A stretch of DNA of 64,000 nucleotides, from assembly GCA_949285555.1 (NCBI GenBank), contig CASDYG010000003.1:231932-295931 (forward strand), given 5' to 3'. The stretch is from an uncultured Eubacteriales bacterium (GTDB taxonomy: Bacteria > Bacillota > Clostridia > Peptostreptococcales > Anaerovoracaceae). Below the pieces are notes generated by a model. It made no database searches, had not been told where the DNA came from, and saw nothing but the letters and a program-made list of their open reading frames with translations. Below are positions 51,142 through 63,838 of this stretch, in pieces (the stretch's first letter is position 1; the number at the start of each line of letters is the position of its first letter). The position numbers and the translations under genes were made by a program.

Positions 51142-51245
51142 TTTTTTACTATATGAAACAAGCATAGCATAAAAAAATATAAAAAGCAAGAAAAAAGTTG
51201 GAACTAATTTTTGCATATATAGGTAAGATAGATATGGAGGTAGCA

Positions 51246-52019
51246 ATGATTATTCCATTATTTACTCAGACAGTACCAAGGCATGGTAGTTTATTAGGTA
51301 TGACCTTAGCATATACATTAAATAAGGCGTTTCATAAAAAGCTAATGTATATCAGCTTAGAAAGCTTTAATTACTTAGATAAACTTATGAGTGAGAAAAT
51401 ATCTCTATCATCATATATCGTTAGAAATAGCTGCATAGATGAAAAGCTGTTTGGTGATATTGTTGGTGAAAGTATTAATAGCAAAGATATGGTTGGTAGC
51501 TGGAGCAAGGGAGTTGATTATATTTATAATACAAATTTTACCCAATGCTTTTTGGTAGAAAAATATTATGATGTCATTAAGTTAATTGAAGATTTTCATG
51601 ATGAAAATTTATATGATGTTATCCTTATAAATCTCGGATCATCATATAGTCCTTTTATTCCTTATTTTTTTAAATATTATGTGACTATGATGATTTCAGA
51701 TGAAGCAGACGATAGCAGAAAACACATAATAGAAGCAGCAAAATATCATCGTGAAACTATATATACAGATGTGGTAAACACATCAAAATTAAAGGACACA
51801 TATAAGGCAGATTTTGATATGGTTTATGCAACATTAGTAAGAGCCTTTAGTCAGGATAGTAACGGTGAAATAGAGATAGGAGGTATGGACAATTTTGCAC
51901 AAGCTACAAATACCAGTATAAGCTTCGACGAGCTTGGAGAGAAACTGGAGCAATCCCTTGAGCTATACAATGATCTCAAATATCTTACAAGCTGTTATTT
52001 AAATAAAATATCTCGGTAA
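51246..52019 (+). CDS. TadZ/CpaE-like protein with degenerate P-loop
   Basis: A 257-residue protein at the head of the Tad locus. The N-terminus resembles a MinD/CpaE fold (MIIPLFTQTVPRHGSLLGMTLAYTLN...KKLMYISLE), but the Walker A lysines are missing: the loop reads TVPRHGSLLGMT. YDVILINLGSSYSP corresponds to the Walker B strand. TadZ proteins mark the pilus assembly site and often have atypical ATP loops. The start at 51246 follows GGAGG five bases upstream; an upstream TTG has no such site. Confidence 0.7.
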   Translation: MIIPLFTQTVPRHGSLLGMTLAYTLNKAFHKKLMYISLESFNYLDKLMSEKISLSSYIVRNSCIDEKLFGDIVGESINSKDMVGSWSKGVDYIYNTNFTQCFLVEKYYDVIKLIEDFHDENLYDVILINLGSSYSPFIPYFFKYYVTMMISDEADDSRKHIIEAAKYHRETIYTDVVNTSKLKDTYKADFDMVYATLVRAFSQDSNGEIEIGGMDNFAQATNTSISFDELGEKLEQSLELYNDLKYLTSCYLNKISR

Positions 52020-52020
52020 G

Positions 52021-53259
52021 GTGGTTGCTGTGAAAAATAGACTAATAAAAATTTCCGATATCATATTAGATGATATGAGAGAGTATATTAAAAATGCTAA
52101 TGTGACTGATGAGCAGGAGAAAAAAGGTAAAATTTTAGATAAAATTTTCCGTAGTGTAATAAGACTTGGCATAAGTCACAATGAAGCTAGTTTCGTAATT
52201 AGCAGAGTACTGCTTCAACTGTTTTTTCCACTTAGTATCATTCAGCCATTTATAATAGATAATAAAATAAATGAAATCATGGTAAATAGCTACAACATGA
52301 TTTTTATAGAGGAAAATGGAATCCTTAAAAAAACTGATTGTCAATTTTCCAGTACAGAGGAATTAGAGGAGGTAATTAGAAAAATAGCTGCTAGTGTCAA
52401 GAGGGAATTTAATGAAATGAATCCAATCTTAGATGCCAGAGTGGTCGAAACAGGGGCAAGAGTTAATGGCGTATATAAAAATATTGCCCTTGGAGGGCCG
52501 ACTCTTACTATAAGAAAATTTGCATCAGAAAAGCTTACGATAGAAGATATGGTAAATTGTGGAACCTTAACTAATGAAGTTGCGGATTTTTTGAAAGACG
52601 TAGTAAGGGCTGGTTACAATATTTTTATCAGTGGAGGTACTTCATCAGGAAAGACGACTTTTCTAAATGCCATGGCTAGTTTTATACCCAAACATGAGAG
52701 GGTTATTGTCATTGAAGACTCAGCAGAGCTTGATATAAAATCTGTGCCTAACATTATAAGCATGGAATGTAGAAATGCTAATTCTATGGGCCTTGGTATG
52801 GTGGATATGGCAGGTCTTATTAAAAGTAGCCTTAGAATGCGTCCAGACAGAATAATAATAGGAGAAGTGAGAGGTAGAGAAGTATTTCAAATGCTACAGG
52901 CACTTTGTACTGGCCATTCAGGGAGCATGTCTACTGGACATGGAAATTCTGTGAGGAGCATGCTCAGTCGTTTGGAATCCATGTATCTAATGGAAACAAG
53001 TGTACCCATAAGCGCCATAGCTGTGCAGATATGTGAAGCTATTGACATTATGATACATTTGGAAAGAGACAGGTATGGTAGGAGAAGGGTGAGTGAAATA
53101 TGTGAAATACTAGGCTATAAAAATGGTGAATATGTGTTAAATAAATTGTTTGAGCGTAATAAAGATGGCCTGTTAAAAACCGCAGGAGGTACATTGAAAA
53201 ATTTAGGGAAAATGCATAGATTTAACTTAGAACTGGAGAATAAAAATGGAAAAAAATAA
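52021..53259 (+). CDS. cpaF: CpaF/TadA-type secretion ATPase
   Basis: A 412-residue hexameric ATPase that drives Flp pilus assembly. The N-terminal domain contains the typical EIMVNSYNMIFIEENG; the catalytic part has Walker A GGTSSGKTTFLNA (about 203-215), the Asp box VIVIEDSAELD, Walker B RPDRIIIGEVRG and the His box GHSGSMSTGHGNSVRSML. Start is GTG 52021 or 52030; AAGGTGG favours the second. It overlaps the TadB-like gene by 14 bases. Confidence 0.95.
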   Translation: MVAVKNRLIKISDIILDDMREYIKNANVTDEQEKKGKILDKIFRSVIRLGISHNEASFVISRVLLQLFFPLSIIQPFIIDNKINEIMVNSYNMIFIEENGILKKTDCQFSSTEELEEVIRKIAASVKREFNEMNPILDARVVETGARVNGVYKNIALGGPTLTIRKFASEKLTIEDMVNCGTLTNEVADFLKDVVRAGYNIFISGGTSSGKTTFLNAMASFIPKHERVIVIEDSAELDIKSVPNIISMECRNANSMGLGMVDMAGLIKSSLRMRPDRIIIGEVRGREVFQMLQALCTGHSGSMSTGHGNSVRSMLSRLESMYLMETSVPISAIAVQICEAIDIMIHLERDRYGRRRVSEICEILGYKNGEYVLNKLFERNKDGLLKTAGGTLKNLGKMHRFNLELENKNGKK

Positions 53260-54019
53260 GCAAATATTTTCAATTCATGAAAAGTTAAATATTAATCTTA
53301 AGAAGCACAGATTCATGCCCATTGCCATTAGCATAAATGCCCTGTCCGGAGTGATGATTTGCCATATGTTCTTTGGAAGACCGTGTATTGGCTTACTTTG
53401 TACCCTTGCAAGCAAGTATACCTGCAACTATATGCATAATTACTTTATAGATAAAAGAAAAAGACAGATGAATAAAATAGTTAGAGACTTTTTATTTAAT
53501 ATTTCTGCATATCTTGAAATAGGTCATTGCTTGGGTGATTGTGCCATTCTAACACTGGATAAGATGAACTCAATATACGGAAATGATAATGAATTTTGCC
53601 GGGCACTAGCTTCATTTAAAAACAACATGCAAATTTCAGGAATCGGGGAAGAAGAAGCATTTGCAATTCTTGTAGATCAAATAGAGCATGAAGATTTGAA
53701 GGGGTTTTACCAAATTTTTTCCATTTGCAGAAAATCGGGAGGTAACTTAATTGAAGCATGTAACAATGCGGCACGCATCATAGGGGAAAAGCTAACTATG
53801 GAACAAGATATAAGTGCCATCTTAGCACAGCGAAAAATGGAAGGCAGAATAATGTCTATCATGCCATTTGCATTAGTTGGACTAATATCGTTCACAGCAC
53901 CAGAGTATTTAGAGCCTATGTACACCAGTATAGGTGGAATCGTTGTAATGGCATTAGCCCTGACTATGACACTTATGGGTATTTACATGATGGAAAGGAT
54001 AGTGAGAATTGAAGTGTAG
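53246..54019 (+). CDS. tadB: TadB-like inner membrane platform protein
   Basis: A 257-residue type II secretion F-domain protein. Two helices near the N-terminus (about 25-65), a cytoplasmic helical region (about 70-190; LGDCAILTLDKMNSIYG, GFYQIFSICRKSGGNLIEACNNAARII) and two C-terminal helices (about 207-250). TadB and TadC form the platform through which pilin is added. Position after cpaF supports the call. Confidence 0.85.
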   Translation: MEKNKQIFSIHEKLNINLKKHRFMPIAISINALSGVMICHMFFGRPCIGLLCTLASKYTCNYMHNYFIDKRKRQMNKIVRDFLFNISAYLEIGHCLGDCAILTLDKMNSIYGNDNEFCRALASFKNNMQISGIGEEEAFAILVDQIEHEDLKGFYQIFSICRKSGGNLIEACNNAARIIGEKLTMEQDISAILAQRKMEGRIMSIMPFALVGLISFTAPEYLEPMYTSIGGIVVMALALTMTLMGIYMMERIVRIEV

Positions 54020-55028
54020 GTTACGGTATCTAACAACAGAGATAAAGAGCATGCTCCTAGTAAAGAATGAACGTAGTAGACTTTTTTTGATAATAGTAGT
54101 TACGCTTGTTTTGTTTTTTGTTGCTATGTACAAAAGCATGAACACCCCTTTTACACTATATGAAACAGATGGAAAAATACAAAAAATTCATTTAAATGAG
54201 ATGTTATCTGATAATGCCAAGCGCATAAACTTAAGAATGGAGGTAAATGGTGAGGATGAGGTCGTAAGTATATCATGGAAGAAGAAAACAGTAAAAAAAG
54301 AGAGAAAGAAAAAGAGTATTGTAGGTAAGGAAAGTGAGGTACGTGAGAAAGAAAGGCTAATTAGAAAACTAAAAAAAGTAGAAAAACAGAGCCTTTATTT
54401 GCCACAAAGTTTGGCAAATGGCAAGAAGATAAGCTGGAGGTATGAAAAAGATCAAAGCTACCTTTATATTTTGCTCATTCCACCTATTTATATAATATGC
54501 TTTATAACGCAGCGAAAAAGTAGAAAACGTAAAACCAGGGAGGATATTTTCAGGAGGATATTAATTGAAATTCCTCAGATAAACCACAGGCTGATTTTAT
54601 TACTGGAAAGTGGACTTGTAATAGGTGACGCACTCATTAGAATAGGAGAAAGCTATGGCAGAAAGGAGGTGTCAACTGGCAGAAAGGAGGTGTCAGCCAG
54701 AAAGAATCCTGTGGCAGAACTTATTTACGAGGCAACAATGGAAAGTAAGCTGCTTAATATAAATCCTATAGAGCATTTTTATAGTAGAGCTTTAAAGCTA
54801 GGAAATCCAACCCTTAGCAGATTTGCCTCTGTTATCTATGATAGTGCCAATAAGGGTAGCCAGCTTAAGGAAAAGCTTCAGGAAGAAGGACATCTGTTAT
54901 GGAATGAACGTAAGAAAAGTGCACAGGAAATGGGGAAGGTGGCAGAAGCAAAACTAATGCTTCCCTTATCAATTATGCTTTTGGCATTGCTAATGATTAC
55001 TGCAATGCCTGCGATGTTAAATATGTAA
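54009..55028 (+). CDS. tadC: TadC-like inner membrane platform protein
   Basis: A 339-residue protein. An N-terminal helix (about 22-38) is followed by a Lys-rich region (about 90-125), a second helix (about 150-165) and a GspF-type domain (about 180-339; INHRLILLLESGLVIGDALIRIG, GNPTLSRFASVIYDSANKGSQL) ending in a hydrophobic helix. A 21-base tandem repeat encodes GRKEVST-GRKEVSA inside the domain. The start is TTG 54009, overlapping tadB, or an internal ATG near 54049. Confidence 0.8.
   Translation: MKCRLRYLTTEIKSMLLVKNERSRLFLIIVVTLVLFFVAMYKSMNTPFTLYETDGKIQKIHLNEMLSDNAKRINLRMEVNGEDEVVSISWKKKTVKKERKKKSIVGKESEVREKERLIRKLKKVEKQSLYLPQSLANGKKISWRYEKDQSYLYILLIPPIYIICFITQRKSRKRKTREDIFRRILIEIPQINHRLILLLESGLVIGDALIRIGESYGRKEVSTGRKEVSARKNPVAELIYEATMESKLLNINPIEHFYSRALKLGNPTLSRFASVIYDSANKGSQLKEKLQEEGHLLWNERKKSAQEMGKVAEAKLMLPLSIMLLALLMITAMPAMLNM
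54657..54698 (+). repeat. 21-base tandem repeat inside tadC
   Basis: Two copies (54657-54677, 54678-54698) share GGCAGAAAGGAGGTGTCA and differ only in the last three bases. Each contains AAAGGAGGTG, a full anti-16S match, inside coding sequence. Confidence 0.9.
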
Positions 55029-55074
55029 AACAAAACGGATAAGTATTTTAATGTTTAATATGAAAGGAGATAAT

Positions 55075-55218
55075 ATGAAAATTTTTAGAAGTAAGAAGGG
55101 AATGGAAATGGTACAGGTGGCTATTTTAATTGCATTGGCAGTTGCAGTAGGTTTGATTTTTAAGAATGAAATTACAGACTTTGTTACAAATACATTTGAT
55201 AATTTAAATGGATTTTAA
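55075..55218 (+). CDS. Flp-type pilin (Flp1-like)
   Basis: A 47-residue peptide too short for usual gene calling. A basic start (MKIFRSKKG) is followed by MEMVQVAILIALAVAVGLIFK, the Gly-x4-Glu-like prepilin pattern with a hydrophobic helix, and an acidic tail FVTNTFDNLNGF. The product fits the Flp1-like major pilin of Gram-positive Tad systems. AAAGGAG lies seven bases before the ATG. It overlaps the next gene by 11 bases. The prepilin peptidase that would cut after the Gly is not in the window. Confidence 0.88.
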   Translation: MKIFRSKKGMEMVQVAILIALAVAVGLIFKNEITDFVTNTFDNLNGF

Positions 55219-55552
55219 TGTGGGCATACTAAAAGATAAAAAAGGTGAAGCTATACTCTCTGCCAGCCTTGCTTATCCAATATTGGTTTTACTATGCATT
55301 TTCATGTGTCTTTGGGCTATAAATGCCTATATGGCTATGCATGAGGGGATTGAACTACAAAAGTCCATAATTACTCAAGACACTGTACCGAAAAAAATAG
55401 GATTCAGGAAGGAAAAGCAAGAATATAAAGGCTTCATAAATAAGCTTTTTATAAGTGAAATTAATAGAAACTATTCCATTTTATATTATTCCTTCCATGA
55501 ACCTTTTTTGATAAAAACTGGAAAGGGGATGAGGCTGATTGAGGATGATTAA
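55208..55552 (+). CDS. TadE-like minor pilin
   Basis: A 114-residue protein with a short cytoplasmic N-terminus and a pilin-like membrane helix (KKGEAILSASLAYPILVLLCIF, about residues 11-36) followed by a small extracytoplasmic part. The GEAxLSA...P pattern resembles TadE/TadF pseudopilins. The start overlaps the Flp gene and its end overlaps the next gene, so the three are coupled. Confidence 0.7.
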   Translation: MDFNVGILKDKKGEAILSASLAYPILVLLCIFMCLWAINAYMAMHEGIELQKSIITQDTVPKKIGFRKEKQEYKGFINKLFISEINRNYSILYYSFHEPFLIKTGKGMRLIEDD

Positions 55553-56744
55553 AAATGTTAAAAAGGGTAGTGTACTTGTAATGACAGCAATGCTTATTTC
55601 TGCAATGATACCGGTAATGGGCATATTCTTTTTTCATACTAAAGAAAAGGCTATAGACGGTAGTGTACATGCTCTTCTTAATCTTTGGAATCAGTCGGTT
55701 ATGGGCGAATATAACAGAGATTTGTTGCAGGCTTATGGAATTTATGGATATCGAGGCTATGATAAAAAAGTGAAAGACAAGCTCAGGGATTACATGGACT
55801 ATTCATTTAAGGATTCTGAAAATATAAAGGTAGAGGGAGTAAAAATATTGCTTAGAAATCATAGGCTGGCAGATTATGAAAAATTTAAAAAGCAGTTGGT
55901 TGAGCTTGGGCAAATTACACTTGCAGGCGATCTATCTTCAAAAATAGGGATAGGCAAAAGGCAGGAGAAGAAGATAATAGACAGATTGGAGGAGTCTAAT
56001 AGATATATAATAAATGAAGAAGTTTTACAGTATCTGCCTTCATATGGACATTTTGGTAGCTTTTCCTTTTCAGAGGTTAAGAATCTGAAATCCATAGATA
56101 ATATTGCGAAGAGGGGAAGTGATGCATATTTCATCCATAAGTATATTTTTCAGTATTTGGAGGAAGAAGATGGATATTTTAAATTTGCACCTGAATATGT
56201 CATATGTGGAAATAAAAGTGATACTGATAACTTGAATGGTGTTAAATGGAGAATAATAGGTATAAGGGAAATTTTCAATGCTATATATTTATATAACTCT
56301 CCTGATAAAATCAGTGCAATAGTAGCCGCTGCTCAGATTATAAGTCCTGGTATTGGAGGGGAGGCTGCCAAGCATGGTATAGTGGCAACCTGGGCATACT
56401 TGGAAAGTACAAACGATTATAAACTGCTGATAAAAGGTAAAAAGGTTCCTCTTTTTAAGGATGATATTAGCTGGGCCACCGAACCAAAGCATGTGATTGA
56501 AAGAATTTTTGGTATCTTAATAGATAAGGATAATAAAAATGGCAATACATATGATGATTATTTGAAGCTTCTGTTATTTCTTACTGATGAAAGGACGAAG
56601 GTTTTAAGGATAATGGATTTAATACAAATAAATATGCAATTTAGATTTGACAAGGACTTCATGCTTGAGGAACATTTTAACGGAATCACAAGTGTTATTA
56701 AAATCAATGGTAGAGTGCATGAGGTAAAAAAGGAGTATTATTAG
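55539..56744 (+). CDS. DUF5702-type extracytoplasmic protein of the Tad locus
   Basis: About 401 residues. A pilin-like N-terminus (KKGSVLVMTAMLISAMIPVMGIFFF) anchors a large extracytoplasmic domain, which I match to DUF5702 proteins of Gram-positive Tad loci by layout and position. These may be TadG-like tip or minor pilins. Start is TTG 55539 or ATG 55545; both lie after purine-rich sequence in the previous gene. No enzyme motif is seen. Confidence 0.7.
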   Translation: MRMIKNVKKGSVLVMTAMLISAMIPVMGIFFFHTKEKAIDGSVHALLNLWNQSVMGEYNRDLLQAYGIYGYRGYDKKVKDKLRDYMDYSFKDSENIKVEGVKILLRNHRLADYEKFKKQLVELGQITLAGDLSSKIGIGKRQEKKIIDRLEESNRYIINEEVLQYLPSYGHFGSFSFSEVKNLKSIDNIAKRGSDAYFIHKYIFQYLEEEDGYFKFAPEYVICGNKSDTDNLNGVKWRIIGIREIFNAIYLYNSPDKISAIVAAAQIISPGIGGEAAKHGIVATWAYLESTNDYKLLIKGKKVPLFKDDISWATEPKHVIERIFGILIDKDNKNGNTYDDYLKLLLFLTDERTKVLRIMDLIQINMQFRFDKDFMLEEHFNGITSVIKINGRVHEVKKEYY

Positions 56745-57506
56745 TTGATAAAGGAGATTAGGGATAAACTAAGAATAAGCAGCAAGGGTAGTATTATTTT
56801 GGAAGCAGCGATAATAATGCCTGTTTTTATATTAGCTTTTGCACTACTTATACAGGTGATTCCTGTATTTGCACAATGGGAGAATTCGATCTATATAATG
56901 GCAGAAGAAATGAGGGCAGAGAGTATAAAGGCGGCTGTTAGAGGTCCAGGTAACACTCTGCCTCTCATTTGTACCGGAAGAGTATATACATCTAACAGCT
57001 TCGTTGATACATTTATAATAACACGTTATGGAAAACATGGAGATAATGATACAATGCATCTTCATTATTATGAAAGCTTTAAAAATAAAAGCTTTCTGCC
57101 TACTGTGGGTAAAATTGCTTTTAAAGGAAAAATCAAGGCCAGAGCCTTCATAGGTCGTAAATATGAGGGGCAGGCTAGAGGAGAAGATGAATTTAAAACC
57201 CGTGGAAATGCCAATAGCGTATACATCTTTCCAGAAGCCGGAGAAAAATATCATAGGTCTGGCTGTAGGTTTCTGAAGTCTAATGGGCGGGAAGTGACTT
57301 TGACAGATAGTATAAAAAGAAGATATAAACCATGTACCCATTGCAATGCTAAAAATTTAGCTTTAGGCTCAAGGGTGGTCATATTTGAAAAAACGGGAGA
57401 TGGTTATCATGCTCCAAGCTGCCCTGTAGTAGATAAATTTTATATACGTGTTGATAAGAAACAGGCAGAAAAAAGAGGCTACAAACCATGTAAGGAGTGC
57501 TATTAA
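56745..57506 (+). CDS. TadE-like pilin with two C-terminal His/Cys modules
   Basis: A 253-residue protein. KGSIILEAAIIMPVFILAFALLIQV (about residues 14-38) is a TadE-type pilin helix, followed by an extracytoplasmic domain. The last 90 residues hold two copies of a H-x3-C-x22-C-x2-C module: His170-Cys174-Cys197-Cys200 and His222-Cys226-Cys249-Cys252, each ending YKPCxxC. They look like zinc sites. The TTG start follows AGGAG by nine bases and abuts the upstream stop. It is the last gene of the Tad unit. Confidence 0.8.
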   Translation: MIKEIRDKLRISSKGSIILEAAIIMPVFILAFALLIQVIPVFAQWENSIYIMAEEMRAESIKAAVRGPGNTLPLICTGRVYTSNSFVDTFIITRYGKHGDNDTMHLHYYESFKNKSFLPTVGKIAFKGKIKARAFIGRKYEGQARGEDEFKTRGNANSVYIFPEAGEKYHRSGCRFLKSNGREVTLTDSIKRRYKPCTHCNAKNLALGSRVVIFEKTGDGYHAPSCPVVDKFYIRVDKKQAEKRGYKPCKECY

Positions 57507-58002: not shown

Positions 58003-59376
58003 ATGTTGAGATTTTTTGTAGCTCTTTGGGCTGCTAAGCTGGTGATGTTTATCAATAAGTTACGTGGCAATTTGAGGGATGACTGGCCAGGACTTTTGGC
58101 ATTTAAAATTTGTCCTAGGTTTTTAGCCTATATTAAAAAGCCAAAGCTTGTGATTACGGTTACAGGTACCAATGGAAAAACGACTACATCTAATTTGATT
58201 AATGATTTTTTATGTGAACAGGGATTAAGTGTTAGTCATAACGATTGGGGCGCAAACCTGTATGCAGGATTTGCCCTAAATCTAATGAGGACAGTCAATA
58301 TTTTTAATAAGACAAAAATGGATGCATCAATTCTTGAAGCAGATGAGCTGACACTAGATCAAACCATGACTATGATAGAGCCAAATTATATTGTGGTTAC
58401 GAATATCTGTAAGGATAGCCTGAGAAGAAATGGTCATCCGGAGAATATTTTTAATCATGTTAATAAAACATTTGAAAATCTTGGGAATAAGACTGTGGCT
58501 ATTTTAAATGGTAATGATCCAATTAGTAGCAATTTAGCTAAAGGTTCAAAAAGGGTATATTATTCTATCAATGATCTGAAGCTTAATCCTAATGAAAATA
58601 TTGTGAGGGACATATCAATATGTCCAATTTGTGAAGGTGAAATTAAATATAACTACAGGCATTATAGACACATAGGGGATTTTTTCTGTGATACATGTAG
58701 CTACAAAACACCAGAAAGCAAGTATTTTGTCAATTCTGCCGACTTAAATGGGCGCACCATGGTAGTCCATGAAGGGGATGAATATACTGAGTATCCACTT
58801 ATCTCTGATAATATTTTTAATGCATTTAATGTATTATCATGTATAGCCATATTAAGAGAGCTTAAATATGAGAAAAATGAAATCGCTGATTTTTTAGCAA
58901 GGCAAAAGGTCACTGAATTTAGAGAAACAATAGTTGAGTTTAATGGCATAAAATATTATACATTTGGTGCAAAAAGTCAGAATGTTAGTGCCGCTTCAAC
59001 GGTGTTTGAATATATGGCAAAGGAACCATCAAAAAAAGATGTAGTACTTCTGCTGGATGAACTATATGATAGAAATCATCCGCCTGAGACAGTTACATGG
59101 CTTTATGAGACGGATTACGAATTTCTAAATAGCCCAAATATAAATAAGATAATAGTAGGAGGGCGAATGTTCCTAAACCATAAGCTACGTATGCTTTTGG
59201 CGGGAATAGATTCTGATAAGATGATCTGCTTGGAAGATGAAGATGAAATAGTGAATTATGTATCTACAGAAGGTATAGAAAAAGTGTATGTTCTTTTTGA
59301 AATTGACTATGTGACAAAGGCAAGAAAAATGCGAGATAAAATTGTAGAAAAAGCAAAGGAGAAGGTAAGTAGATGA
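58003..59376 (+). CDS. MurT-like Mur ligase (copy 1)
   Basis: A 457-residue homologue of MurT, the ligase half of the lipid II isoglutaminyl synthase. The Mur ATP loop VTGTNGKTTT (55-60) and the acidic SILEADELTLD are present. A zinc ribbon has Cys207/Cys210 and Cys229/Cys232, and a C-terminal DUF1727 domain runs from about 320. The canonical DQLDRYGE-like block reads DSLRRNGHPENI, and the DUF1727 block that normally resembles KNPxGxNE reads GAKSQNVSAAS; the usual DTSW Asp appears as TVTW. Start: AGAGGGA before ATG. It overlaps its GatD-like partner by four bases. Substrate may differ from lipid II. Confidence 0.85.
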   Translation: MLRFFVALWAAKLVMFINKLRGNLRDDWPGLLAFKICPRFLAYIKKPKLVITVTGTNGKTTTSNLINDFLCEQGLSVSHNDWGANLYAGFALNLMRTVNIFNKTKMDASILEADELTLDQTMTMIEPNYIVVTNICKDSLRRNGHPENIFNHVNKTFENLGNKTVAILNGNDPISSNLAKGSKRVYYSINDLKLNPNENIVRDISICPICEGEIKYNYRHYRHIGDFFCDTCSYKTPESKYFVNSADLNGRTMVVHEGDEYTEYPLISDNIFNAFNVLSCIAILRELKYEKNEIADFLARQKVTEFRETIVEFNGIKYYTFGAKSQNVSAASTVFEYMAKEPSKKDVVLLLDELYDRNHPPETVTWLYETDYEFLNSPNINKIIVGGRMFLNHKLRMLLAGIDSDKMICLEDEDEIVNYVSTEGIEKVYVLFEIDYVTKARKMRDKIVEKAKEKVSR

Positions 59377-60071
59377 AGACAGTTGAGTTTTTACTAGCTC
59401 CTTATTGTGAAATATATGGTGAATTTTACAATATAGAATATCTAAAAAAATCCAGTGATAAGATAAATATTATAAAATCCACTCATAAGGAAGAACCATA
59501 TTTTGTATCTCATCATGTGGATATGATTTATATGGGATGCATGACTGAGGAAAAGCAGGAAAAAGCTATTGAGCATTTGAGGCCGTACAAGGATAAAATT
59601 AAAGAGCTGATAGATAAGGGTACAATTTTCCTGGTGACTGGTAATGCAATAGAAATTTTTGGTAAATATATTATAGATGGTAAGCGTAAGATACCGGCTC
59701 TGGGAATATTTGACTTTTACAGCGAAAGAAGGATGAATGATAGACATAATAGCTTGTTTGTAGGTGACTTTAACGGTATGAAAATCATAGGTCATAAAAG
59801 TCAGTATTCTATGTCATATGGAAATATAGATAATTATTTTATCAATATAGACAGAGGTTATGGTATAAACCTTGATAGTAAAAAAGAAGGAATAAATGTA
59901 AAACATTTCTTTGGTACCTATTCACTTGGACCGTTTCTTGTGCTTAATCCTTATTTTACTAAATATTTGTTAAAGCTATTGGGAATTACTGATAGTCTCA
60001 AATTTGAGAAAGAAGCCGTAGAAGCCTATGAGTATAGATTGGCAGATCTTTTAGACAGGATAAAATATTAG
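59373..60071 (+). CDS. GatD-like glutamine amidotransferase without catalytic Cys/His (copy 1)
   Basis: A 232-residue CobB/GatD-fold protein. The order of blocks matches GatD: an N-terminal APYCEIYGEFYNI strand-loop, DMIYMGCM for the usual GGGQ loop, the nucleophile elbow and the final YxxGPxLxxNP block. The elbow reads LVTGNAIEIFG, so Thr89 replaces the nucleophilic Cys, and YSLGPFLVLNP has Leu185 in place of the catalytic His. The 96-residue spacing equals that between Cys94 and His189 of S. aureus GatD as I recall it. It should not hydrolyse glutamine and may serve as a structural or binding partner of the MurT-like protein. Confidence 0.8.
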   Translation: MKTVEFLLAPYCEIYGEFYNIEYLKKSSDKINIIKSTHKEEPYFVSHHVDMIYMGCMTEEKQEKAIEHLRPYKDKIKELIDKGTIFLVTGNAIEIFGKYIIDGKRKIPALGIFDFYSERRMNDRHNSLFVGDFNGMKIIGHKSQYSMSYGNIDNYFINIDRGYGINLDSKKEGINVKHFFGTYSLGPFLVLNPYFTKYLLKLLGITDSLKFEKEAVEAYEYRLADLLDRIKY

Positions 60072-60086
60072 TAATGGGGAGGCCGT

Positions 60087-61097
60087 ATGATAAGTATTCG
60101 ATATCTTATAAAGCGAATGAAAAATTCTAATTTCAGCAGATATACGGAAGCAGCAAAAAGAATATCAAAAATTACAGGACGCATGGAAAAATTACTGCTG
60201 ATTGATATGATTATATCAACATTAAAATATGGAGCAGGACCAGTAGACTATGAAACCTTTGCTATGTATGAAATGAAAGCCAAGGAAAGGGGAGATGTCC
60301 TTACAATAGGGAAAAATAATGAATTAGTCAAGAGATTAAACAATCCTAAGTATCTTCCATATTTTGAGGACAAATATGAATTTATAAAAAAGTTCGATAA
60401 ATATATTAAGAGAAGCTGGGCTATGATTGATGATAGTACTGACAGAATAGAAGCGTTTTTAAGTGACAAAGAAAAGATTATCGTAAAGCCTCTAGATGAA
60501 AGCTGTGGTAAAGGTATTAGAATAATAGATTTAACCAATTACGCATCAAAACATGATCTTTTGGAGGAGCTTAAGGCAGATGGTACGCCTCTCATGGAGG
60601 AGGTCGTAGTACAGGGAAGCTATATGAATAATATCTATAATAATTCGGTAAATACTGTCAGAATTATTACTATCTTAAATGGGGGAAAGGTTAATCTGGT
60701 AGCTGGCTGCCTCAGAGTTGGGCGTAATGGAAATTATGTAGATAATTTTAATAATGGTGGTATTGCATGCATCATTGACTGTAAGACTGGCCATGCGGCA
60801 ACAGATGGATATGATAAGTATAGAAAGCAATACGAAGTTCATCCTGATACCGGTGTAAAATTTAAGGAATTTAAGGTACCTAACTGGGACAAGGTAAAAG
60901 AACTCTTAGATGAGGCAGCCAATATTGTTCCTGAGGTGAGATATGTAGGCTGGGATATTGCATTTGATAAAGATAATATGCCTTTTTTAATAGAAGGAAA
61001 TGGCTATCCCGGACAGGATGTAACTCAGTATCCAAAGCTAGGAATTGGAAATTATAAAGTGATGAAAGAGGCATTAGGGGAAAATGAACAGAATTAG
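60087..61097 (+). CDS. ATP-grasp ligase (sugar-transfer-associated ATP-grasp type)
   Basis: A 336-residue ATP-grasp protein. The ATP-binding Lys is in IIVKPLDESCGKGIRI (about 131-146), the hinge MEEVVVQ, then NSVNTVRIITI, DNFNNGGIACIID and the metal-binding VGWDIAFDKDNMPFLIEGNGYPG. The pattern matches the ATPgrasp_ST group, which occurs in envelope sugar or amino-acid ligation clusters. GGGGAGG precedes the ATG. It begins 15 bases after the first GatD-like gene and overlaps the second MurT-like gene by 14. It likely forms an amide or ester bond on a wall or lipid substrate, but the acceptor is unknown. Confidence 0.85.
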   Translation: MISIRYLIKRMKNSNFSRYTEAAKRISKITGRMEKLLLIDMIISTLKYGAGPVDYETFAMYEMKAKERGDVLTIGKNNELVKRLNNPKYLPYFEDKYEFIKKFDKYIKRSWAMIDDSTDRIEAFLSDKEKIIVKPLDESCGKGIRIIDLTNYASKHDLLEELKADGTPLMEEVVVQGSYMNNIYNNSVNTVRIITILNGGKVNLVAGCLRVGRNGNYVDNFNNGGIACIIDCKTGHAATDGYDKYRKQYEVHPDTGVKFKEFKVPNWDKVKELLDEAANIVPEVRYVGWDIAFDKDNMPFLIEGNGYPGQDVTQYPKLGIGNYKVMKEALGENEQN

Positions 61098-62454
61098 ATT
61101 TTACCTAGCCCTTTGGATGGCAAAGCTGGCGGTTCTTACCATGAGTATTTTAAAATATAATGGTACCAATTTCCCAGGTCAACTTGCCATTAAAATATGC
61201 CCTGAGTTTTTAAGGTATATTGGTAAGCCGAAGGAGATTATAGGAATAACTGGAACCAATGGAAAGACATCGGTAGCCAATATGGTTGTGGATTCGCTTA
61301 AGCAGGATGAAGTTTATCCCTTAAACAATAGCTTTGGCTCAAACATACATACTGGAATTGCTACTGCACTTTTAAAGGAATGTAATATTTTTGGTAAATC
61401 GAAAAAAGAACTTGCGGTATTAGAAATAGATGAGCGTGCGATGCCTCTTATCATGCCGTATATAACTCCTAAAATTATGGCAGTTACTAATCTTTTCAGA
61501 GATTCGATGAAGCGAAATGCACATCCTGAATATATAGCAGGGATATTGGAAAAATATATAAGTGATGATGCTCTTATGATTTTAAATGGTGATGATGTTA
61601 TCTCATCTCAGCTAAAAAAGAAAAATAAAAGGGTTTATTTTGGTATAGAGAGTTTACCAACAGATTTACAAAAATCGATAAATATTATAAATGATGCCAG
61701 AATTTGTCCAAAGTGTCATCATGAACTTAAATATACTAATGTGCGATATCATCATATAGGCAGGTGTATTTGTGAAAGCTGCGGTTTTAAATCACCCGAA
61801 TTGGACTTTATGGGCGTTAAGGTTGATTTTGATGCTAAGAAATTGAGTGTTAGTTATAAAGGTGAGATATATGAACTGCCACAAAATAGTGGAGGTATCC
61901 ATAATGCGTATAATACACTTTGTGTTGCAACAATTTTAAGTAGCATGGGATATGATCTTACAAGAATATCTGAGCTTTTGAAAACTGTTTCAGTAGTAGA
62001 AAGTAGATTTTCAAAAGAAAAATGCGGACCTGTGACTGTTGCAAATCAAATGGCAAAGGAGAACAATGCAGTAGGAAGCTCAAGAGCATTTGATTATATA
62101 AGTAGTCTGCCGGGAGAAAAGGAGTTAATCCTAATGATGAACTGTCTTGGAGATCAGGAGCATTGGTCGGAAAATACTTGCTGGCTCTATGACTGTGATT
62201 TTGAGTTTTTAAATAAAGATGATATAAAGCAGATTATTGTAACGGGACCTAGAGGACGGGATTACCACTTAAGGCTGCTATTAGCAGGGGTAGCGGAAGA
62301 GAAAATAACATGGATCGAAAATGAAATAGATGCACCTGATGCGTTAAAATATACTCCTGGAGAGAGCATTTACATATTTTACGGAACAGATTCTCTTGCA
62401 TTAGGTAACAGAGTTATGGAAAAGACCAAAGAAATTGCCAGAAGGAGGGGCTAG
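61084..62454 (+). CDS. MurT-like Mur ligase (copy 2)
   Basis: A 456-residue paralogue of the first MurT-like protein. ATP loop ITGTNGKTSV (57-62), VLEIDERAMPLIMPYI, and zinc ribbon Cys208/Cys211 with Cys230/Cys233 at the same spacing as copy 1. It shares the altered block DSMKRNAHPEYI, and its DUF1727 region reads MAKENNAVGSSRAFDYI where MurT has KNPxGxNE; NTCW stands where DTSW is expected. It starts within the ATP-grasp gene after TAGGGG. The paralogues differ throughout, so this is an old duplication rather than a recent one. Confidence 0.85.
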   Translation: MNRIRFYLALWMAKLAVLTMSILKYNGTNFPGQLAIKICPEFLRYIGKPKEIIGITGTNGKTSVANMVVDSLKQDEVYPLNNSFGSNIHTGIATALLKECNIFGKSKKELAVLEIDERAMPLIMPYITPKIMAVTNLFRDSMKRNAHPEYIAGILEKYISDDALMILNGDDVISSQLKKKNKRVYFGIESLPTDLQKSINIINDARICPKCHHELKYTNVRYHHIGRCICESCGFKSPELDFMGVKVDFDAKKLSVSYKGEIYELPQNSGGIHNAYNTLCVATILSSMGYDLTRISELLKTVSVVESRFSKEKCGPVTVANQMAKENNAVGSSRAFDYISSLPGEKELILMMNCLGDQEHWSENTCWLYDCDFEFLNKDDIKQIIVTGPRGRDYHLRLLLAGVAEEKITWIENEIDAPDALKYTPGESIYIFYGTDSLALGNRVMEKTKEIARRRG

Positions 62455-62458
62455 TGCA

Positions 62459-63190
62459 GTGAATGTAGAGATACTTTTTCCAGAAGTAGCCAATCTATAT
62501 GGAGAGCTTTCTAATATCAGGTTTATGTTTGGCAAAACAAATCACAGGCTGATAAATACCCATTTGGAAGATATACCTGCTTTTGCTGAATCTGCTCCCG
62601 ATTTTATTTACATGGGCGCCATGAGTGAAAATGCGCAGGAGCTTGCTATAAATAGGCTTTTACCATATAAAAATAGGCTGAAGGAACTTATAAATCAGGG
62701 CACATTTATTCTGCTTACAGGTAATGCCGGAGATGTGTTCCTAAATGAAATCGTAGATAAAGAAAATAATATAAAGCTAAATGGGCTGGGAATTGTTGAT
62801 GGAATAACAGAGCGAAGGATGATGAAAAGGCATAATTCACTATATCTTGGAAATACGGATATGGAAGGAATAGAAAAGAAAAAAATAGTTGCTTTTAAGA
62901 GCCAATTCACAAGAACTGCGTATAGTGATAGCTATAGTCCGTTATTTACAACGATTAGAGGATATGGAAGAGGTTTAAAACCCGGAAGTGATGAGGGCGT
63001 TAGAATCAATAACCTGATGATAACTGAGCTACTTGGTCCACTACTTATACTTAATCCATTTTTTACCGAGGGGGTGCTTGGATGTATGGTTGAATGTGAA
63101 CCAAAGCTTCCATATTTTGATGTGGCTGTTGATGTGTATAATAAAAGAGTGGAAGAATTTAGCCAGCCAGATCGAGGTTTTACCTATTAG
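62459..63190 (+). CDS. GatD-like protein without catalytic Cys/His (copy 2)
   Basis: A 243-residue paralogue of copy 1. LLTGNAGDVFL has Thr87 at the nucleophile position, and TELLGPLLILNP has Leu192 in place of the catalytic His; its only Cys residues are near the C-terminus (VLGCMVECEPK). DFIYMGAM replaces the GGGQ loop. The GTG start is chosen because GAAGGAGGGG ends eight bases before it; the longer frame would contain that site. It lies four bases after the second MurT-like gene and closes the five-gene unit. Confidence 0.8.
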   Translation: MNVEILFPEVANLYGELSNIRFMFGKTNHRLINTHLEDIPAFAESAPDFIYMGAMSENAQELAINRLLPYKNRLKELINQGTFILLTGNAGDVFLNEIVDKENNIKLNGLGIVDGITERRMMKRHNSLYLGNTDMEGIEKKKIVAFKSQFTRTAYSDSYSPLFTTIRGYGRGLKPGSDEGVRINNLMITELLGPLLILNPFFTEGVLGCMVECEPKLPYFDVAVDVYNKRVEEFSQPDRGFTY

Positions 63191-63263: not shown

Positions 63264-63290
63264 AAAGAGCAATCTTCATGGTTGCTTTTT
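63264..63290 (+). terminator. Terminator after the MurT/GatD-like operon
   Basis: GCAATC (63269-63274), loop TTCAT, GGTTGC (63280-63285) with flanking AAAGA/TTTTT pairing, then T residues. Confidence 0.85.
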
Positions 63291-63322: not shown

Positions 63323-63838
63323 ATGATTATTAGAAGAGAGAGGTCAGAAGATTATCAGCAAATATATAATCTGATAAGGATTGCATTTGAATCAGCACCG
63401 CACTCGGATGGAGAGGAACATGAGCTTGTGGAAAGGCTTAGAATGGGTAAAGGCTATATTTCTGATCTATCCTTAGTAGCTATAATTGACGATAGTATTG
63501 TAGGCCATATTATGTTTACAAAAGCAAAGGCTGGATGTACAGATGTTTTAGCACTTGCGCCAGTTACAGTCTTACCTGAGAATCAGAATAAAGGTATCGG
63601 TTCAGCTCTGATAAGAGAGGGGCACAGGTTAGCAAGAAAATTTGGATATGGATATTCGGTGGTATTAGGTGATCCAAAGTATTACTCAAAGTTTGGATAC
63701 ATACCGGCGGAAGCTTATGGTATTACTTCACCATTTGAGGATATACCAGAAGGCTATTTTATGGCTTATAAAATACATGATGAAGCACCAAAAGCTTGCG
63801 GAATGATGGTATATGCTGAAGAATTTGGAATAAATTAG
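63323..63838 (+). CDS. GNAT family N-acetyltransferase (YhbS-like)
   Basis: A 171-residue acetyltransferase. IRRERSEDYQQIYNLI opens the fold; VLPENQNKGIGSALIREGHRLA is the acetyl-CoA-binding loop (Q/RxxGxG/A), and VLGDPKYYSKFGYIPAEAYGI is the YhbS-type C-terminal block. The acceptor molecule is unknown. GGAAGGAAG precedes the ATG. It is a single gene between a terminator and the IS end. Confidence 0.92.
   Translation: MIIRRERSEDYQQIYNLIRIAFESAPHSDGEEHELVERLRMGKGYISDLSLVAIIDDSIVGHIMFTKAKAGCTDVLALAPVTVLPENQNKGIGSALIREGHRLARKFGYGYSVVLGDPKYYSKFGYIPAEAYGITSPFEDIPEGYFMAYKIHDEAPKACGMMVYAEEFGIN

Follow-up and report, generated by a model that had tools for sequence, protein, structure and literature searches.

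Positions 58003 to 63190 of the 64,000-nucleotide stretch analysed here (the window), part of contig CASDYG010000003.1 from an uncultured bacterium of the clostridial family Anaerovoracaceae, hold five consecutive genes in the order murT-gatD-ATP-grasp-murT-gatD (Table 1). A preliminary description of this DNA had proposed that order, and the five open reading frames (ORFs) and their packing are as it claimed, with spacings of -4, +15, -14 and +4 bases between successive genes. The last of these values assumes that GatD-B starts at the GTG preceded by AGAAGGAGGGG, the mechanical ORF start being a TTG at 62435. The source genome (1.45 Mb, 16 contigs, 90% complete) yielded two MurT_C proteins, both encoded by this operon.

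Table 1. Genes, motifs and flanking hairpin of the five-gene operon, in window coordinates
Feature	Coordinates	Strand	Remarks
MurT-like A (MurT-A, P0001), 457 aa	58003..59376	+	Pfam MurT_C and Mur_ligase_M
MurT-A P-loop GTNGK	58165-58179
MurT-A RNGHPE	58426-58443
MurT-A zinc ribbon CPIC; CDTC	58621-58632; 58687-58698
MurT-A HPPETVTW	59077-59100		Thr363 at MurT D349 site
GatD-like A (GatD-A, P0002), 232 aa	59373..60071	+	Pfam GATase_3; without glutaminase residues
GatD-A TGN	59637-59645		Gly90 at Cys site
GatD-A LGP	59925-59933		Leu185 at His site
ATP-grasp ligase (P0003), 336 aa	60087..61097	+	PF14397 ATPgrasp_ST
MurT-like B (MurT-B, P0004), 456 aa	61084..62454	+	Pfam MurT_C and Mur_ligase_M
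MurT-B P-loop	61252-61266
MurT-B RNAHPE	61513-61530
MurT-B zinc ribbon CPKC; CESC	61705-61716; 61771-61782
MurT-B HWSENTCW	62161-62184		Asn364 at D349 site
GatD-like B (GatD-B, P0005), 243 aa from GTG 62459	62459..63190	+	without glutaminase residues
GatD-B TGN	62717-62725
GatD-B LGP	63032-63040
Terminator-like hairpin	63264..63290	+	73 bases 3' of last gene

Both MurT-like proteins match MurT_C and Mur_ligase_M above the Pfam cut-offs; GatD-A matches GATase_3 at 5.8e-10, and GatD-B does so at 0.0015, below the cut-off. The MurT and GatD proteins of the operon all score far under the NCBIfam equivalog cut-offs, that for MurT being 800 bits, against at most 152.3 for MurT-A and 196.8 for MurT-B. 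The closest solved chains by sequence are S. aureus MurT for MurT-B and S. aureus GatD for GatD-B. The model of GatD-B (predicted local distance difference test score, pLDDT, 91.4) also finds S. aureus GatD as its best structural match (template modelling score, TM, 0.79/0.81), and that of MurT-B has a pLDDT of 84.3, with stretches of the HPE and HWSEN loops under 50. The ATP-grasp protein matches PF14397 at 9.4e-54 (182.9 bits against a curated cut-off of 31.4), and a search for solved relatives by sequence at E 1 returned none. A defence system was considered and rejected, as the five proteins have no PADLOC match at E 0.01.

Using the S. aureus sequences as anchor, I aligned 216 MurT-GatD pairs, which left 192 GatDs once identical ones were removed: 133 carry TGN at the site of the catalytic Cys, 31 have both Cys and His (hereafter canonical), 16 carry TGT, 3 TGSS and 9 something else. 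The TGN class was set first by motif, and a recount by aligned site returned the same 133 members. Every one of them, the two window GatDs included, has Gly in place of the Cys and lacks His at the His site, where Ile (61), Leu (50), Thr (18) and other residues (4) are found. The third triad residue, D349, lies in MurT, and in S. aureus amidation by MurT-GatD is lost or severely reduced in the C94G, C94S and D349N mutants (PMC6113224). Canonical MurTs have Asp at this site without exception (30/30), whereas the 133 TGN MurTs have Asn (95), Thr (21), Glu (7) or Asp (6), among others.

The preliminary description had put the Thr of a TGNA motif at the Cys site and the Leu of LGPxL at the His site. 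That Leu is aligned there in both window GatDs, and the Cys is indeed gone, but the residue in its place is Gly according to the 216-pair alignment; Thr, off by one, is less likely. The register is good to plus or minus one position, a phmmer alignment giving Asn and the helix start in the GatD-B model allowing Thr, and none of these residues is Cys. The ATP loop and zinc ribbon, said to be kept, are present in both MurTs (P-loop and four zinc Cys each). The supposed absence of the usual DUF1727 motif holds in part: PF08353, presumably the DUF1727 of older naming, is still matched above its cut-off, but the triad Asp has become Thr in MurT-A and Asn in MurT-B.

As judged from these alignments, a loss common to 133 non-redundant pairs is not due to chance, and a GatD of the TGN type can almost certainly no longer hydrolyse glutamine. 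With all three residues of the joint triad (Cys, His and the Asp in MurT) missing, the attacking nucleophile would not be ammonia derived from glutamine. The glutaminase independence proposed earlier is thus strongly supported, the MurT Asp being lost besides the two GatD residues.

The remainder of the MurT active site tells of retention. Across the 133 TGN MurTs the P-loop Lys is kept in 131, N85 in 131, D112 in 132, and E113 and each zinc Cys in all; the equivalents of pneumococcal K59, N85, D112/E113, D136 and R140 are kept in at least 131, and mutants at these sites have 1-13% activity left in S. pneumoniae (PMC6085368). Two sites have instead changed: that of pneumococcal E143 is His in 133 of 133 TGN MurTs against Glu in 29 of 30 canonical ones, and that of Y/F141 is Asn in 128, which results in the block DSxxRNxHPE. 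In GatD, 130 of 133 TGN rows keep Arg at the equivalent of Arg128, a glutamine-binding residue in S. aureus, but 13 of 16 TGT rows have Val. Because the ATP-site residues and zinc Cys persist across all or nearly all of these sequences, the TGN MurT-GatD is, by this comparison, a changed enzyme under selection and not a decaying one.

The TGN profile finds matches at E 0.001 in 94 of 247 genomes of the family, 53 of them strong (E about 1e-70 or better), and in 205 of 391 genomes of the class, where most are weak and the weak ones fetched turned out to be canonical or of other types. Forty-seven TGN-bearing family genomes were searched for MurT_C, and the fetched loci of 46 of them (G186 left out) contain no GatD with Cys and His; two of the TGN-genome loci include cobyric acid synthases, which have a CGGYQ of their own, and three MurT_C matches fall outside the fetched loci (G170:C33, G174:C48 and G186:C1, one of them below the cut-off). 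Canonical GatDs do occur in three family loci (L122-L124). In the phylum, 65 of 199 genomes contain MurT_C, 63 of these outside the class, and none of the 20 out-of-class loci read is of the TGN type: 12 are canonical, three lack Cys and keep His (f101/g332), one reads TLGP (f108), one has Ala and His, and in three no GatD ORF was found.

Among named genomes, the search returned 280 relatives in 349 stretches. The best 80 of these 280 belong to metagenome-assembled genomes (MAGs) of Clostridia, with a few isolates such as Sporobacter termitidis, and to three further MAGs with the titles Erysipelotrichaceae (two) and Tenericutes (one). MurT stands beside GatD in 78 of these 80 loci, and in the two misses GatD starts 74 and 172 bases from the contig end; an ATP-grasp gene is found in 33, on the same strand within the cluster in 30 and, in the other three, apart from the pair and in the opposite orientation. 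Vescimonas fastidiosa has its TGN pair on an 861 kb replicon.

In the tree, all 133 TGN rows fall within a group of 138 (support 0.80) and 15 of the 16 TGT rows within a group of 18 (support 1.0); having no outgroup, it accommodates one triad loss as well as two. The literature matches listed (titles and abstracts, with subscription papers mostly uncovered) include no account of a GatD lacking Cys and His, of the TGN clade or of the TGT type. A further genus (L215-L217) has a GatD reading V/LTGSS, with Cys lost and His kept, and a MurT that as aligned lacks the D112 and P323 equivalents, which may be another separate change or decay. Broken copies were also seen, namely a MurT spread across two frames in G226 (L099:6139-7495) and a GatD match in G634 (L141) that is interrupted by three stops, both possibly decaying or misassembled.

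The 16 rows of the TGT type, which include an outlier with a TGN-like MurT (L156), have Gly for Cys, Leu for His (15/16), Asn for D349 (16/16) and Asn for Y141. This type differs from the TGN type in having Asp in place of the new His, in keeping KNP, in its mostly Val residue at Arg128 and in forming a separate tree group. It occurs in some Anaerovoracaceae and in Eubacterium limosum (G617) and probably Acetobacterium woodii (G350), each with one MurT_C protein, whose single MurT/GatD pair lacks Cys and His and has Asn at D349; the TGN-linked ATP-grasp subfamily was not found in either of these two genomes. Eight genomes of the E. limosum family (f60) were matched, and of the seven read six are of the TGT type and one (G632) is canonical, G569 being unread. 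Loci L167-L171 and L173 (E. limosum and kin), together with L027, L030-L032, L117-L120 and L125, mostly have a TGT/LGP GatD; their MurTs carry a motif resembling QKDQVQRNGDPD and have Asn at the D349 site.

In group B walls the bridge is borne by the alpha-carboxylate of D-Glu, and I take the walls of both A. woodii and E. limosum to be of group B. Where that carboxylate carries a bridge, an amidating enzyme would be misplaced and a ligase that joins an amino acid would be needed. Because these organisms nevertheless keep a dead pair, an amino acid is to be preferred over ammonia as the nucleophile. The argument would reach the TGN type, a different clade, by analogy. A review table lists B 2alpha beside A types for the genus Eubacterium (PMC11382707), and the wall of E. 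limosum is given as containing Ala, Glu, Lys, Orn and Ser (PMC4791908).

The ATP-grasp gene probably links the locus to the cell wall. Of the 53 genomes of the family that match TGN strongly, 48 have its subfamily of ATP-grasp, as does one of 25 chosen comparison genomes (G091, a weaker match at 5e-57). Few genomes of the family encode a full-length FemAB (12 of 247 at E <1e-60), and four of these 12 have TGN pairs. FemAB is found in three of the five TGN genomes without the ATP-grasp gene (G003, G015 and G122) and in one of the 48 with it (G110), a difference with a Fisher test value of 0.0017 among genomes that are related, not independent, and a contrast that rests on two genera, g1 and g12. 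In g1, G000 and G001 have ATP-grasp without FemAB and G003 has the reverse; in g12, G015 and G122 have FemAB and G170, G200 and G226 have ATP-grasp, so that from one species to another one gene stands in for the other. FemA and FemB add residues of the interpeptide bridge, according to a table in PMC12786226. Since the genes exchange, the ATP-grasp protein probably does a FemAB-like job of bridge residue addition, and a wall role of the locus is likely; the exchange thus supports the wall function and linked ATP-grasp step put forward in the preliminary description.

The source organism itself would suit such a role. A match to DapF was not found in its genome, as far as that is complete, and its MurE reads NEVPFDEDP at the site of the DNPR motif carried by MurE of the diaminopimelate (DAP) type. 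The wall is therefore probably not of the DAP type, which makes cross-bridges plausible.

It might be argued that the complex acts on another carboxylate polymer or lipid (a teichuronic or capsule-type polymer, or a lipid head group) instead of peptidoglycan. The name of PF14397, "sugar-transfer associated", would fit, as would a cardiolipin-synthase-like gene that, by my reading, immediately precedes MurT, or in three cases the ATP-grasp gene ahead of it, in 16 of 60 TGN loci, one of them matching Pfam PLDc. That gene, however, also stands beside the TGT loci L117 and L120, is not found at the window locus and may reflect plain synteny; moreover, the FemAB exchange and the nearest solved relatives, which are lipid II enzymes, speak for peptidoglycan, and I regard a different substrate as improbable. 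In L020, L022, L028, L066, L067, L070 and others, the cardiolipin-synthase-like gene is directly upstream and an M50 peptidase downstream of MurT-GatD, an arrangement not found at the window locus.

At this point, the reading I favour, with about even chances of being right, is that the two MurT-GatD pairs of the TGN subfamily work as ligases without a glutaminase and attach to a wall precursor an amine that is probably an amino acid, and that the ATP-grasp enzyme extends the bridge. MurT would activate a carboxylate of the peptidoglycan precursor as an acyl phosphate, to judge from the kept K59, N85 and D112/E113 equivalents. The attacking nucleophile would most likely be an amino acid placed by the remodelled MurT loop with its new invariant His, perhaps with help from the former glutamine pocket of GatD and its kept Arg128 equivalent. 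Either the D-Glu alpha-carboxylate or a carboxylate close to it would thereby receive an amino-acid branch, as happens in group B cross-bridges, and the ATP-grasp enzyme could then extend this branch by a further residue, as FemAB appears to do in relatives without it. The preference for an amino acid over ammonia, already voiced in the preliminary description, is favoured by E. limosum and A. woodii and is otherwise something I infer. A sharper version, which I hold only tentatively, has the TGN complex as a group-B-type bridge ligase in which MurT activates the alpha-carboxylate of D-Glu and couples an intact amino acid to it, with the old GatD pocket (TGN plus Arg) as delivery site and the ATP-grasp enzyme, in place of FemAB, adding the next residue.

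Several observations weigh against amino-acid joining and bridge extension. Two TGN genomes (G154 and G254) lack both ATP-grasp and FemAB and one (G110) has both, and a strong TGN match is missing from eight of the 12 genomes with FemAB. A wall analysis of a TGN bearer was not found. Absence of DapF was tried as a marker of TGN bearers and rejected, many of them having DapF. The E. limosum and A. woodii pairs are, as said, TGT and not TGN, and the GatD on a Leifsonia shinshuensis plasmid has the canonical Cys and His. Leifsonia belongs to the Microbacteriaceae, whose wall is presumably of group B; membership of group B is thus not enough to predict a dead GatD. A dead GatD as a group B marker was accordingly dropped after this trial on Microbacteriaceae, which covered only the plasmid copy. 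That plasmid pair (L190:5001-7950) sets its GatD beside a MurT without cysteines in the zinc-ribbon region and adjoins a gene for a VanY-like M15 peptidase, with metal-resistance genes on either side.

A Cys in an N-terminal loop of GatD, present in 77 of the 133 TGN GatDs including GatD-A, is a further difficulty, and it raises the idea that the nucleophile was relocated to this PE-x-C-N loop or, in another variant, that a separate glutaminase supplies ammonia in trans. Yet GatD-B has Ala there, and no Cys or His column is common to all TGN GatDs, the best reaching those same 77; either variant seems very improbable.

The pneumococcal mutants also count on the negative side, since the loop sites remodelled in TGN MurTs accept substitution there (activity is 71% in D139A and 102% in E143A) and D355A retains 28% in vitro (PMC6085368). 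The new His and the lost Asp alone therefore prove no new chemistry. This tolerance of Ala suits the main rival explanation, a free-ammonia amidotransferase acting on D-Glu or another carboxylate with GatD as a structural partner, and so do the kept MurT activation residues and the kept GatD fold and MurT pairing. The Anaerovoracaceae, moreover, are amino-acid-fermenting anaerobes with an ammonia-rich lifestyle, in which a glutaminase could be dispensable. Free ammonia would leave unexplained, however, the new His shared by all 133 TGN MurTs, the invariant TGN and retained Arg of GatD, and the retention of a dead pair where the D-Glu carboxylate should carry a bridge, and I consider it unlikely, if well worth keeping in mind.

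The closest known system is the MurT-GatD lipid II isoglutaminyl synthase, with structures from S. aureus, S. pneumoniae and S. pyogenes, which is alike in gene order, folds, ATP loop, DE pair, zinc ribbon and GatD fold (TM about 0.8). The window type differs in lacking the joint Cys-His-Asp triad, in reading DSxxRNxHPE where the synthase has DQxDRxGE, and in that its relatives usually have an ATP-grasp gene in the genome and sometimes two paralogous pairs. FemAB peptidyltransferases resemble the ATP-grasp enzyme in its proposed addition of bridge residues but belong to another protein family, PF02388; the ATP-grasp D-aspartate ligase of E. faecium, which adds a bridge residue, is comparable in the same respect. 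Archaeal pseudomurein genes, as described in PMC11915815, likewise combine Mur ligase relatives (pMur ligases, MurT/GatD) and an ATP-grasp enzyme in one wall pathway, but the ATP-grasp is of another group and there is a single MurT/GatD pair, alone or with a GatD-less MurT-like protein.

Although the names MurT and GatD suggest an amidotransferase, a large clade has lost the triad in both subunits. If amino-acid joining is true, the complex would be a candidate initiating enzyme of group B cross-bridges, and to my knowledge no such enzyme has been identified. It would also be an example of a glutaminase that became a delivery subunit, and it would point to a wall step in many Clostridia that have received little study. 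The presence of the sister type in cultured acetogens, E. limosum and probably A. woodii, makes the idea testable.

As for the surroundings of the operon, the hairpin that follows it is by itself weak evidence of a terminator, three such hairpins being found in the region against 2.4 expected. Beyond it lies a GNAT-like acetyltransferase ORF (63323-63838, recognized by eye), probably outside the operon. On the other side, apparent Tad/Flp pilus genes at 51198-57506 (a CpaF-like ATPase, TadB/C-like proteins and a pseudopilin-like protein, again by eye) end about 500 bases 5' of the operon. The pseudopilin-like protein, encoded at 56745-57506, has C-terminal tandem Cys-rich repeats, HRSGCRFL..CTHC and HAPSCPVV..CKEC.

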